A DNA stretch of 64,000 nucleotides from assembly GCA_035274845.1 (NCBI GenBank), contig DATENU010000015.1, positions 248,001 through 312,000 of the forward strand, written 5' to 3'. Shown here in pieces: positions 8,603 to 19,104 of the stretch. A model generated the notes under the pieces. The model was given only the letters and a program-made list of their open reading frames with translations, had not been told where the DNA came from and made no database searches. The stretch's first letter is position 1. The number at the start of each line of letters is the position of its first letter. The DNA comes from Chthoniobacterales bacterium (GTDB taxonomy: Bacteria > Verrucomicrobiota > Verrucomicrobiia > Chthoniobacterales > UBA10450). The position numbers and the translations under genes were made by a program.

Positions 8603-9811
8603 GTGACGGTTTTTCTGGGCTGCGGGTTTGCGGCAAAATATCCCGAAGGCGGCGGCAATTTTTCGGTGCCGCTGCAATGGATGCTGGGACTGCGGCGCCT
8701 CGGCCTGGAGGCCGTCTGGCTGGAGGTTCTGCCAGCGACCGCCGACCCGCGCGAGGATGCGTCGCGTATTCGCATTTTCCAACGGCGGCTGCACGCCCAC
8801 GGATTGGGCGATTCGTATTGCCTACTCCACCAGACCCGTCCGGCTGACGCGCACGATCTCGGCGGGATGCAGTGCATTGGGCTGTCGCGGCAGGAACTGT
8901 CCCGGCGTCTGGCTGCACCCAATGTTCTTCTCAATCTCAGCTACTCGCTGCACCCTCCATTTCTGCTTCAATTCGAGCGGCGCATCTTTTGCGATCTCGA
9001 TCCCAGCGAAATCTTCTACTGGATGACCAGGATGGAGATGGGCCAATCGTTCCACCACGAATTCTGGACGATCGGGCTGAATGCCGGTGCGCCCGGCAGC
9101 CGTTTACCTCGAACTGTAGCCGCTTCGCTGTTCAAACCGTCGGTTGCTGCAAACCAGACTCCCGCGTTGCGCACGGGGCGACGGCTACAGTGGAAGACAT
9201 TTTATCCTCTGGCCGATACGGAGTTGCTGCGCCCGCAGCCACGGCCCGCCGCGGCCAAATTCACGACCGTTGGCCAATGGTATTGGGGCGGGGGCGTAGA
9301 AGTGGATGGTGCGTTTCCCGACCTGTCCAAAAAGTTCGCTTTCGAGCCGTACCTCGATTTGCCCCGGAGCGTTCCATCCGCCCGATTTGAGCTTGCGATG
9401 AATCTAAAAGGCGATGACCCCGAAATCCAGCGGCTCCGCCAGCGTGGTTGGCGAGTCGTTTCGCCGCATCGCGTCACTCGCACACCGGCCGCGTATCGGC
9501 GCTACGTTGCGAGCGCCACGGCTGAATTCACCGCGATCAAGGGCGTGGACGTGACGTGGCGAACAGGTTGGCTCAGCGATCGTGCCGCCGCCTTCCTGGC
9601 GCTGGGACGGCCGGTCATTACGGAGGACACCGGGGCGGGTAAATATCTCCCGGCCGAGAGCGGCCTTTTCTTTGTTCGTGATCTCGAGACGGCCGCCGCC
9701 GCGGTTCGAGAAGTAATGGCCGATTGGCCCAGGCTTTCGAAACAGGCTCGCGCCTGTGCGGTGGAAACGTTCGATTCCGCCAAAAATCTTCGACAAATCC
9801 TTGGGGTTTAG
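8603..9811 (+). CDS. CgeB-like glycosyltransferase family protein, with a repeat-derived insert
   Basis: GTG start at 8603 and 402 residues. The N-terminal half (FLGCGFAAKYPEGGGNF, LQWMLGLRRLGLEAVWLEVL) looks like the acceptor domain of a GT-B fold. The C-terminal half has TGWLSDRAAAFLALGRPVI then EDTGAGKYLP, the usual nucleotide-sugar end. It is a clear paralogue of the protein at 17782-18957, which has TGWFSDRSGCYLAAGRPVI in the same place. Residues about 171-196, encoded by 9114-9190, have no counterpart in the paralogue and are bounded by CTGTAG/CTACAG, so they look like an in-frame REP-like insertion. Acceptor and sugar are unknown. Confidence 0.6.
   Translation: MTVFLGCGFAAKYPEGGGNFSVPLQWMLGLRRLGLEAVWLEVLPATADPREDASRIRIFQRRLHAHGLGDSYCLLHQTRPADAHDLGGMQCIGLSRQELSRRLAAPNVLLNLSYSLHPPFLLQFERRIFCDLDPSEIFYWMTRMEMGQSFHHEFWTIGLNAGAPGSRLPRTVAASLFKPSVAANQTPALRTGRRLQWKTFYPLADTELLRPQPRPAAAKFTTVGQWYWGGGVEVDGAFPDLSKKFAFEPYLDLPRSVPSARFELAMNLKGDDPEIQRLRQRGWRVVSPHRVTRTPAAYRRYVASATAEFTAIKGVDVTWRTGWLSDRAAAFLALGRPVITEDTGAGKYLPAESGLFFVRDLETAAAAVREVMADWPRLSKQARACAVETFDSAKNLRQILGV
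9114..9190. repeat. REP-like element embedded in glycosyltransferase coding sequence
   Basis: 77 bases bounded by CTGTAG and CTACAG. The left end CTGTAGCCGCTTCGCT matches, with one mismatch over 16 bases, the reverse complement of the right end of the intergenic element at 12263-12330. The element lies wholly within an open frame, and the paralogue at 17782 lacks the corresponding residues. Confidence 0.55.
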
Positions 9812-10831: not shown

Positions 10832-12268
10832 ATGGACCGCGTCGCCGGCATCGAGACGGAATATGGCTGCCTGGTCAGCGGGGAGGAAGGTCGCGCACAT
10901 ACCGACGCCTGGCCCGTGCGGGTGAAGAATTATCTGTTCCGCAAAGCGCAGGCCGGCGCCATCGACCTTCATTATCGCGATTATGAAGAGCCGCCGGGCA
11001 ATGGCGGGTTTCTCCTGAATGGCGGCCGGCTCTATCTCGATATGGGCCACATCGAGTACGCCTCTCCCGAATGCCTGCATCTGCGCGACGTCATTACCTA
11101 CGACCTCGCCGGCGACCATCTCCTGCAATCCGCTCTTGAGGCGTTGGACGCCGTCGAGCGGGTCTCGTTCATCAAGAACAATGTCGATCACAACACGGGC
11201 GCGACATTTGGCTGCCACGAGAACTATTTGATGAAGCGCGAAGCGCAGTTCACGCCACCCGTTCTCGGGACCCTGCTCGCGTTTCTGGCCACCCGTCAGA
11301 TTTTCACCGGTGCGGGGCGGGTGGGGCAGGCGAACCCGCTCGCGTTCGACTTCCAACTGCCCCAACCAGAGGTCCAGGTCGATTTCCAGCTGAGCCAGCG
11401 AGCGGATCACATCGTGAACGACATCTACCAGTGGGTGCAGTTCAATCGCGCCATCATCAATGCCCGGGACGAGCCGCTGGCCGATTATCGAAAATATCGG
11501 CGCCTCCATTTGCTCATCGGCGATTCGAACATGAGCCCATTCGCTACCGCGCTAAAAATCGGGACGACCGCATGCGTTCTTTCGCTCCTGGAAGAAGGTC
11601 GCCTCCCGAAGAACCTGATTCTGGCCGATGCCGTCCAAAGCACGCGCGATGTCTCTCGTGATGCGACCGGCGCGTGGCTGGTGCGGCTGGAAAGCGGCAA
11701 GACGATCGGTGCGCTCGACGTCCAGTGGCAGTTCCATGAACTGGCCCGCGCTCACCTTGGCGGCATCGATGAGGAAACCGACTGGCTCCTCGAGAGCTGG
11801 AGCTTCACGCTCGAAGCGCTCAGCAACAAACCGGAGTCACTGATCGGTGGCGTCGATTGGATCACCAAGAAGTGGTTGCTGGAAACTTTCATGAAATCCG
11901 AAGGCATCGGCTGGGACGATCCCTGGCTCCAGAGTCTCGATCTCGAGTATCACAATATCGATCCCCAGAAGGGGTTGTTCTTCGGAGTAAATCCGGCGAA
12001 ACGGATCGGCGAGTGGAACAACAGCGTCCGGCAGCCGAGCGCCAGCTTCCAACCGCCCGCGAACACCCGCGCGGCCGGTCGCGCCCAGGCCGTCGCCTGG
12101 TTTCAGAAAAACGAACAACCGTACGTGATCAACTGGGATTCCATCGCGTGCGACAACCGCGATTTTCTGGTGATGGGAAATCCGTTCGAAACGTATTGCG
12201 ACGAAGTCGCCCGCTTCCTCTCACAGCCGCGGGCATCCAAATCGCCGCGGAGCGAAGAGCCACTGTAG
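10832..12268 (+). CDS. Dop/PafA-family carboxylate-amine ligase or deamidase (Pup/UBact-type), orphan
   Basis: 478 residues. Family hallmarks are in order: G-I-E-T-E-Y-G at 6-12 (Mg-ATP ligands), N-G-G-R-L-Y-L-D with the likely catalytic Asp at 70, E-Y-A-S-P-E-C, KNNVDHNTGATFGCHENYL, LATRQIFTGAGRV, FQLSQRADHI, and NARDEPLADYRKYRRLH then GDSNMS. PafA joins the C-terminal Glu of Pup to protein lysines; Dop deamidates Pup and removes it. The sequence has features of both, so I do not choose. No small Pup or UBact ORF, ARC/Mpa ATPase or proteasome subunit lies nearby. The TAG stop falls in the CTGTAG end of a REP-like element. Confidence 0.85.
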   Translation: MDRVAGIETEYGCLVSGEEGRAHTDAWPVRVKNYLFRKAQAGAIDLHYRDYEEPPGNGGFLLNGGRLYLDMGHIEYASPECLHLRDVITYDLAGDHLLQSALEALDAVERVSFIKNNVDHNTGATFGCHENYLMKREAQFTPPVLGTLLAFLATRQIFTGAGRVGQANPLAFDFQLPQPEVQVDFQLSQRADHIVNDIYQWVQFNRAIINARDEPLADYRKYRRLHLLIGDSNMSPFATALKIGTTACVLSLLEEGRLPKNLILADAVQSTRDVSRDATGAWLVRLESGKTIGALDVQWQFHELARAHLGGIDEETDWLLESWSFTLEALSNKPESLIGGVDWITKKWLLETFMKSEGIGWDDPWLQSLDLEYHNIDPQKGLFFGVNPAKRIGEWNNSVRQPSASFQPPANTRAAGRAQAVAWFQKNEQPYVINWDSIACDNRDFLVMGNPFETYCDEVARFLSQPRASKSPRSEEPL

Positions 12269-12330
12269 GGAGGCGCTGTGTCGCCGTCTCGCACCGAGGC
12301 CGGCGCCTCGACTGAGCGAGGCGGCTACAG
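12263..12330. repeat. REP-like element CTGTAG...CTACAG
   Basis: 68 bases with perfect 6-bp inverted ends and nested GC-rich hairpins such as GAGGCCGGCGCCTC. It lies between convergent genes. Its left terminus contains the Dop/PafA stop codon. The same termini bound the element inside the glycosyltransferase at 9114-9190. Confidence 0.6.
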
Positions 12331-17781: not shown

Positions 17782-18957
17782 TCAGATTCCGGCGCGGTCG
17801 AGAAGGGAGCGGAGGACTTTTTCGGCTTCGAAGAATTGCCGGGCGATTTCGCGGGCCGCCAATGAGTGGCGGGTGTAGTCGGCGTTGATGCTTTTCACGG
17901 CTTCGGGAATTTCGCCTAACGAGTTGAAGGCGATGAGGCCGTGGCGGCCGCCACCGAACATCCGAGTGAAACCGGTCTCCTGGATAATCACGGGACGGCC
18001 AGCCGCGAGATAGCAGCCACTGCGGTCGCTGAACCAGCCGGTATTGAGCCGGACGTACTGGTCCTTCGCGACGGTGAATTCGCCCTTCGAACGACGAATG
18101 TAATCGCGATAGAGGCGGTAGTCGGCGCTCAGGTCGTGCGGAGTCCGGAACCGCCAGTCGTTGCCCAGAAATTTTTCACGAGTCCGCTCGTCCTTGATAT
18201 CGGTGGCGAGCTCGAAGGTTTCGCCGGCGCGCTTCGGCGCGGCCACGAAGCGAATGAACTCGCGCGACTTGCTCCAGAGATATTTTTCGCCGCGCCATTC
18301 GATGTCTTTCAACCCGCTGGTCGACCAGTTCGCCACCGACGTAAAAACGGCGGCGGGGCCGGGAGGGCGCGTGGTTTTCCAAAGATCGGTGACGATCGGC
18401 TGGCGGGTGGGCAACCATTTCAACGTATGCGTGGGAACGGGGAACTGCTCCGTGCCGACATTTTCGCCGAAGGTGAAGAGGGCATGGTGGCGCCGGAGAT
18501 ATTTGAGGGTGGCTTTCTCTCCTTTATCCACTTTGATTTGCTCAACGCCGGGATCGCTTTCGATGTAGAGAATCCGATCGCTCGCCAGCAGGTCGGGATT
18601 GAACTCCTGGGTGCCGCAGACATTGAGAATGGCGTCGGCCTCGCGGTAAAGTTCGCGAATTCGGGCGAGGGGAAGGCCGGCCGTCGGGAAACCGGGGAGG
18701 TAGCGGGCGCAGAAACTCCAGCGCCGTTGGAAGCCGAATTCGGAGGCGAGGTGCCGCAGCATGCGGGCGGCGTAATCGAACTCGTTGTTTACCTCGAAGG
18801 TGTCGGGGTTGTAGGGAAGCCGCGCCGAATCTTCGATATAGAAGACGTCGTGGCCGAGCCGTTGCAGGCCAACGATGTAATGGAGGTGCTGCCAGATGAC
18901 GCCGGCGATAGGGCAGGAGCCCATGAAGCCCATGACGATGAGGCGCTTTTTTTTCAT
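17782..18957 (-). CDS. CgeB-like glycosyltransferase family protein (paralogue of 8603-9811)
   Basis: 391 residues from ATG 18957, giving MKKKRLIVMGFMGSCP; ATG 18963 is equally possible and a further 14 residues could be added up to 19005. The N-terminal domain has GVIWQHLHYIVGLQRLGHDV, matching LQWMLGLRRLGLEAV of the paralogue. The C-terminal domain has LNTGWFSDRSGCYLAAGRPV then IIQETGFTRMF. This is a GT-B type layout, but the substrate is unknown. It precedes nothing in its own transcript, while a hexapeptide acyltransferase and an ABC exporter lie upstream on the same strand, suggesting surface glycan or lipid modification. Confidence 0.6.
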   Translation of the reverse strand: MKKKRLIVMGFMGSCPIAGVIWQHLHYIVGLQRLGHDVFYIEDSARLPYNPDTFEVNNEFDYAARMLRHLASEFGFQRRWSFCARYLPGFPTAGLPLARIRELYREADAILNVCGTQEFNPDLLASDRILYIESDPGVEQIKVDKGEKATLKYLRRHHALFTFGENVGTEQFPVPTHTLKWLPTRQPIVTDLWKTTRPPGPAAVFTSVANWSTSGLKDIEWRGEKYLWSKSREFIRFVAAPKRAGETFELATDIKDERTREKFLGNDWRFRTPHDLSADYRLYRDYIRRSKGEFTVAKDQYVRLNTGWFSDRSGCYLAAGRPVIIQETGFTRMFGGGRHGLIAFNSLGEIPEAVKSINADYTRHSLAAREIARQFFEAEKVLRSLLDRAGI

Positions 18958-18997
18958 TCGCATCGGCAAAGAAACAATGCCGCAGGCGCAAAAGAAA

Positions 18998-19104
18998 ACG
19001 TCCAACGTTTAACGTCCAACGTCCAACATTGAACTAAGAAGAGCGGTGCGGCTGCTCGCTCTAAAATTGAACGTTGGATGTTGAACGTCGGACGTTGAAC
19101 GTTC
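18998..19104. repeat. Inverted tandem-word hairpin 3 (period 7, ACGTCCA)
   Basis: Left arm at 18998-19034: five degenerate ACGTCCA units. Right arm at 19065-19104: five TTGAACG units, the inverse. The loop is about 30 bases. It lies 21 bases after the acyltransferase stop and about 40 bases before the glycosyltransferase start, so a read-through transcript would fold it. Confidence 0.75.

Follow-up and report, generated by a model that had tools for sequence, protein, structure and literature searches.

How a stretch of DNA with the appearance of a non-coding repeat comes to be read as protein inside the gene of an enzyme is the question raised by one locus in the 64,000-nucleotide stretch of Chthoniobacterales DNA analysed here (the window). 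The initial annotation had proposed that a REP-like element, bounded by CTGTAG and CTACAG, lies in frame in a glycosyltransferase gene and had there become protein. The features concerned are the following.

8603 to 9811, plus strand: glycosyltransferase gene, host of the insert, 402 aa, GT-B fold (ORF, fold search, dN/dS)
9114 to 9190, no strand: REP dimer (BIME-like), in-frame insert encoding (T)VAASLFKPSVAANQTPALRTGRRLQ (matches in the genome; absent from most orthologues)
9114 to 9139, plus strand: left REP arm, subfamily R1 (CTGTAGCCGCTTCGCTGTGCGAAGCG), 23/26, inner stem half mutated
9140 to 9164, no strand: spacer of 25 nt between the REP arms, with no relation to those of other orthologues
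9165 to 9190, minus strand: right REP arm, subfamily R2 (CTGTAGCCGTCGCCCTGTGGGCGACG), 23/26
12263 to 12330, no strand: intergenic REP dimer of another subfamily
17782 to 19005, minus strand: paralogous glycosyltransferase without the insert (BLASTP E 2e-26, 27% identity)

The host enzyme and its extra loop

The host protein, which around the insert reads ...GLNAGAPGSRLPR-TVAASLFKPSVAANQTPALRTGRRLQ-WKTFYP..., found no family match in a Pfam search. Its AlphaFold model (mean pLDDT 89.7, pTM 0.89) has the two Rossmann domains of a GT-B enzyme and matches the GT-B glycosyltransferases 5zer, 4xsu and 7qsg in a fold search (E 1e-8 to 1e-9), the best PDB matches being retaining GT-B enzymes at a probability of 1.00 with a TM-score of only about 0.5. 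The name glycosyltransferase is therefore right. The sole segment of the model with pLDDT below 50 (residues 173-192) falls inside the REP-coded stretch, the remainder averaging about 90, so the surface loop anticipated in the initial annotation appears in the predicted structure as a disordered one; judged from secondary structure, the insert would sit ahead of the first strand of the C-terminal domain. Purifying selection acts on the gene outside the insert, dN/dS being about 0.06-0.10 in most pairs with relatives, and on these values we reject the idea that it is a pseudogene.

Orthologues were gathered from 147 related genomes and from GTDB contigs with Chthoniobacterales or Spartobacteria in their record titles, mostly metagenome-assembled genomes with home-made gene calling. 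More than 50 of about 68 distinct orthologues lack the insert, and in most of the roughly 70 distinct proteins aligned the interval between RLP and an invariant Trp is five residues (xSxLx, e.g. KSSLR, PSPLG) as against 27 in the window protein. The paralogue at 17782, as had been claimed, also lacks the segment, placing PVPTHTLKW opposite the 27-residue stretch. Neither the same residues encoded by unrelated codons nor a longer loop conserved in the family, either of which the initial annotation had named as refuting its reading, was seen among the orthologues: the long loops are REP-derived and scattered over the tree. The identity of the element as a REP and the insert-free orthologues support the view that a non-coding repeat has turned into protein.

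A decayed REP dimer

The element begins with CTGTAGCCG at 9114 and finishes with its inverse at 9190, 77 bases that do run from CTGTAG to CTACAG and are read in frame as about 26 residues. We confirmed it to be a mixed R1/R2 dimer of GTAG-type REPs, inverted with respect to each other and decayed. A GTAG tetranucleotide beside a short palindrome is present, with CT-GTAG at both outer ends, and the consensus stems of this genome's REPs are CGCTTCGC-TGT-GCGAAGCG and CGTCGCCC-TGT-GGGCGACG, from which each arm of the window copy has degraded. Folded as DNA, an intact genomic dimer reaches a z-score of -4.9 and the window copy one of -1.5, most of its structure thus being gone. Searched against its own genome the 77-mer gives 53 matches, the best full-length ones elsewhere having E values of 3e-7 and 2e-6.

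That this is an ordinary coding loop bounded by CTGTAG and CTACAG through chance has a negligible probability. The boundary hexamers alone are indeed weak, with 15 CTGTAGCCG-like matches in the window where 9 are expected, but the identity of the first 18/18 bases of the left arm to the R1 consensus, the agreement of 23/26 in each arm and the full-length genomic match at E 3e-7 go far beyond them. Orthologue DNA refutes a chance palindrome, as near-perfect dimers occupy the same site in G005/L067 and G050/L078.

The left end of the element had also been matched to the intergenic element at 12263-12330. The match of 15/16 bases in reverse complement stands, but the intergenic element belongs to another REP subfamily while the window element is mixed R1/R2, so a one-to-one match is only part of the story. 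The ORF at 10832-12268 takes its TAG stop from this intergenic REP (CTG TAG, 12263-12268).

Recurrence at one site

REP-like inserts occupy the same five-residue interval in 13 orthologues, all of them looking REP-derived and falling into at least four junction or subfamily types (A to D). Type A comprises the window gene itself (L066), L067, L068, L069 and L074 together with the shortened L075 and L076; here CTACAG directly abuts the TGG codon, so that CTA CAG, the last two codons of the right arm, seems to have replaced the native, conserved Leu-x ahead of Trp. Types B (L072, L073) and C (L078) retain 14 nt between element and TGG, and type D retains nine (L070 and L077, with L071 lacking them). 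In L078 the insert, a dimer that is nearly intact, comes from another subfamily, R5b/R6 (CTGTAGCCGCCCCGCTCAGTCGGGGCG...CACGGCGACACAGCGCCGTGGCTACAA). A maximum-likelihood tree of this single gene, built from the protein without the insert, requires 10 changes to account for the presence of the insert, at least seven of them forced by well-supported branches, and the carriers are polyphyletic. They are confined to the REP-bearing family of the order, in which most tested members have 7-113 REP dimers per genome; in four genomes from its other families the count is 0. A search for target-site duplications and, in the empty site, for an exact CT target gave nothing convincing, and no clean empty-site junction emerged.

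A single REP insertion in the ancestor of the family might produce the same distribution if it was precisely lost many times and if its sequence turned over in place through conversion by other REPs, the scatter over the tree then reflecting loss and not repeated gain. Y1-type single-stranded elements (IS200/IS605) can excise precisely, and the spacers of L067, L068, L069 and L074 have the same length of 34 nt, three of these (L068, L069, L074) also sharing their left junction; the D-type inserts of L070, L071 and L077 are likewise alike though their carriers lie far apart in the tree. We nevertheless consider this reading rather unlikely, as every insert-free orthologue of the family keeps the exact five-residue spacing, including outgroups whose tested genomes have no REP dimers, as junctions and subfamilies differ among types A, B, C and D, and as the arms stay near consensus in several carriers despite saturated silent sites between species. 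Spacers resemble each other only within L072-L073, L070-L071-L077 and L075-L076; pairs of type A spacers gave no significant sequence similarity, at a divergence where silent sites are saturated (dS >1). From these sequences type A could be one old insertion with a diverged spacer and several losses, and gains are not fully separable from losses.

Recurrence could also mean that the REP-coded loop was recruited for a function, in regulation or partner binding. Its appearance at the same place in several genera and the Leu that type A CTA CAG provides ahead of the invariant Trp are in keeping with such a role, to which we assign a very low probability: the spacer residues are unconserved, the loop is predicted to be disordered, most departures of the window element from consensus are replacement changes (judged by eye), and sister species do without the insert.

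REPs and REP-flanked transposases in the genome

The genome holds many dispersed REP copies, often as inverted pairs. In a scan with eight half-consensi of 1.826 Mb (five contigs, 40% of this genome) there were 132 half-REP sites against 5 in a reversed-sequence control, 82 of them intergenic and 36 inside called genes. Copies of the form CTGTAG-N45-75-CTACAG, whose presence in other coding regions the initial annotation had suggested looking for, number 44 against 18 in the control, and such copies are present within genes; with one extra base at each end (CTGTAGC...GCTACAG) the genome-wide counts are 43 and 2. In about 10 credible genes, 26 REP sites lie 60 nt or more from the gene end with no stop in the frame used. 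Nearly all internal dimers, which represent few independent cases, read NCT-GTA-GCN; the CTG-TAG frame is excluded because of its stop.

The REP-holding genes include those for RNase R, MetH, ArgJ, ArgS, a DUF255/thioredoxin-domain protein, a family-B DNA polymerase, a helicase-like and an alpha-amylase-like protein, names which, for genes with no alignment to a solved homologue, rest on Pfam or on reading of the sequence. When MetH, RNase R, ArgJ and ArgS are aligned with solved homologues, the alignments are broken or gapped at the REP stretches, which the homologues lack; that of the family-B polymerase is also gapped there, less cleanly. In MetH (L240, G000:C15:103509-103633) four R4 half-REPs code for about 42 residues of the linker between the Hcy and pterin domains. 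In several other genera, too, this loop of RNase R holds REP-derived residues (L301 PVAAVYDRR...DRRSQTAATG, L312 SVAAVYDRR...DRRSQTAAT), with REP remnants in L313, L315, L317 and L321 and a short loop in L296-L300, and the loop of the DUF255 protein is likewise filled by REPs in other genera (L328, L330, L332, L344 and L347) and empty in L326, L327, L329 and L331.

Two further observations concern these genes. The MetH relatives L267, L286, L269 and L281 have other variable repeat-like linkers (e.g. VIPSEVEESR..., RPQRRD...EAPPTLQ). In the five contigs scanned, R4-type REPs (CTGTAGCGGCGGTCTC...) are enriched inside genes (15/37, against 11/95 for other subfamilies; Fisher p 0.0004).

Among nine Y1_Tnp matches in the genome, two belong to Y1 (HUH) transposase genes flanked by REPs of the subfamilies found elsewhere in it (REPtrons). 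The gene at C8:22729 has R4 REP pairs on both sides (L173 1318-1372 and 1913-1965) and is probably the cognate RAYT of the R4 family, and the gene at C9:61223 has R1 and R1/R2 REPs at its flanks. The coding sequence of the latter, RAYT-like gene (L168 1414-1914, minus strand; G000:C9:61223-61552) itself contains an R2 REP in frame (...EKAAPATASPTGRRLQKPFW...), the resulting peptide ASPTGRRLQ preceding a KPFWQRRFFDH segment.

Proposed origin of the insert

RAYTs cleave single-stranded REP DNA at the CT adjoining GTAG (PMC8266576), a cut that fits the CT-GTAG ends of the window element and makes RAYT-driven insertion the most likely route. A RAYT/TnpA_REP Y1 transposase would probably have mobilised the dimer as single-stranded DNA, and the dimer would have come to lie where the N-terminal Rossmann domain meets the inter-domain linker. 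As junctions and length left the frame open, translation of the element would add about 22 residues, a disordered loop without conservation that the enzyme would have tolerated, and later drift would have erased the hairpins; it is in this sense that we infer the loop to be both translated and neutral. The loops of RNase R and of the DUF255 thioredoxin-domain protein would have been hit likewise, and with such repeated hits in several proteins, coding REPs would thus arise steadily as a by-product of REP activity, with selection letting through those that leave the frame open and lie at tolerant sites. Taken as a whole, this explanation, in which a REP dimer, probably mobilised by a RAYT, entered a tolerated loop of the glycosyltransferase and the same loop was hit more than once in the family, is in our judgement very probable.

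In these soil Verrucomicrobiota, mobile non-coding repeats thus appear to be converted into protein again and again. A stronger form of the explanation, to which we give an even chance, would make certain protein loops recurrent landing sites that RAYT-mobilised REP subfamilies colonise independently, replacing one another across genera. If that is true, domesticated Y1 transposition would be a continuing source of in-frame variation in loop length, even in its own transposase. Annotation of these genomes should allow for core enzymes with REP-derived inserts about 20-30 residues long.

Comparison with known systems

The kind of event is already known. Di Nocera et al. 2013 (PMC3733652) reported intragenic GTAG REPs, Opitutus terrae, also of the Verrucomicrobiota, having the largest number, and the present elements resemble them in being GTAG palindromes, usually dimers coding for 20-30 residues, in frame in unrelated genes, with DNA/RNA enzymes among the hosts, repeat-flanked RAYT genes, and REP ends that give TAG stops. 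The differences are the lineage, Chthoniobacterales here, and orthologue series that, for three genes, have one and the same loop repeatedly occupied by REPs of different subfamilies, whereas the 2013 study described one near-same-site case only (recB in two Xanthomonas species), its sites being otherwise different (PMC3733652). Inverted REP pairs, GTAG next to CT and a REP-flanked Y1 transposase are shared with the REPINs/BIMEs and their RAYT (TnpA_REP) (PMC3116915, PMC8266576), which characteristically lie outside genes, whereas a sizeable share of the present copies is coding.

The Rickettsia RPEs (Ogata et al. 2000, 2002, to the extent that they are described in PMC10969869) are likewise selfish palindromes translated in frame inside functional proteins, and the window locus, with its in-frame insertion, insert-free orthologues and gene under selection, has the properties of an RPE-like coding palindrome. 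Different RPE groups have also been found near the same site in orthologues (RPE-4/6/7, PMC3767692). The RPE families, however, are about 100-150 bp long, CGTC-tagged or unrelated, and reside in a reduced intracellular genome, the intragenic RPE-4/6 belonging to the CGTC group (PMC3733652) where the ends here are GTAG; our elements are GTAG dimers of 61-90 bp, accompanied by RAYT genes in a 4.5-Mb genome. With intragenic GTAG REPs and RPEs already known, the window insert is therefore another case of that kind, and what stands out is the strength of the recurrent same-site series. The Rickettsia work asked whether occupancy of one site reflects hot spots or one old insertion, and left the question open (PMC3767692). 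The present family offers a denser natural series, spanning dozens of genomes and several REP subfamilies and genes, with empty and filled sites together, and with RAYT genes still present, so that this question becomes testable.
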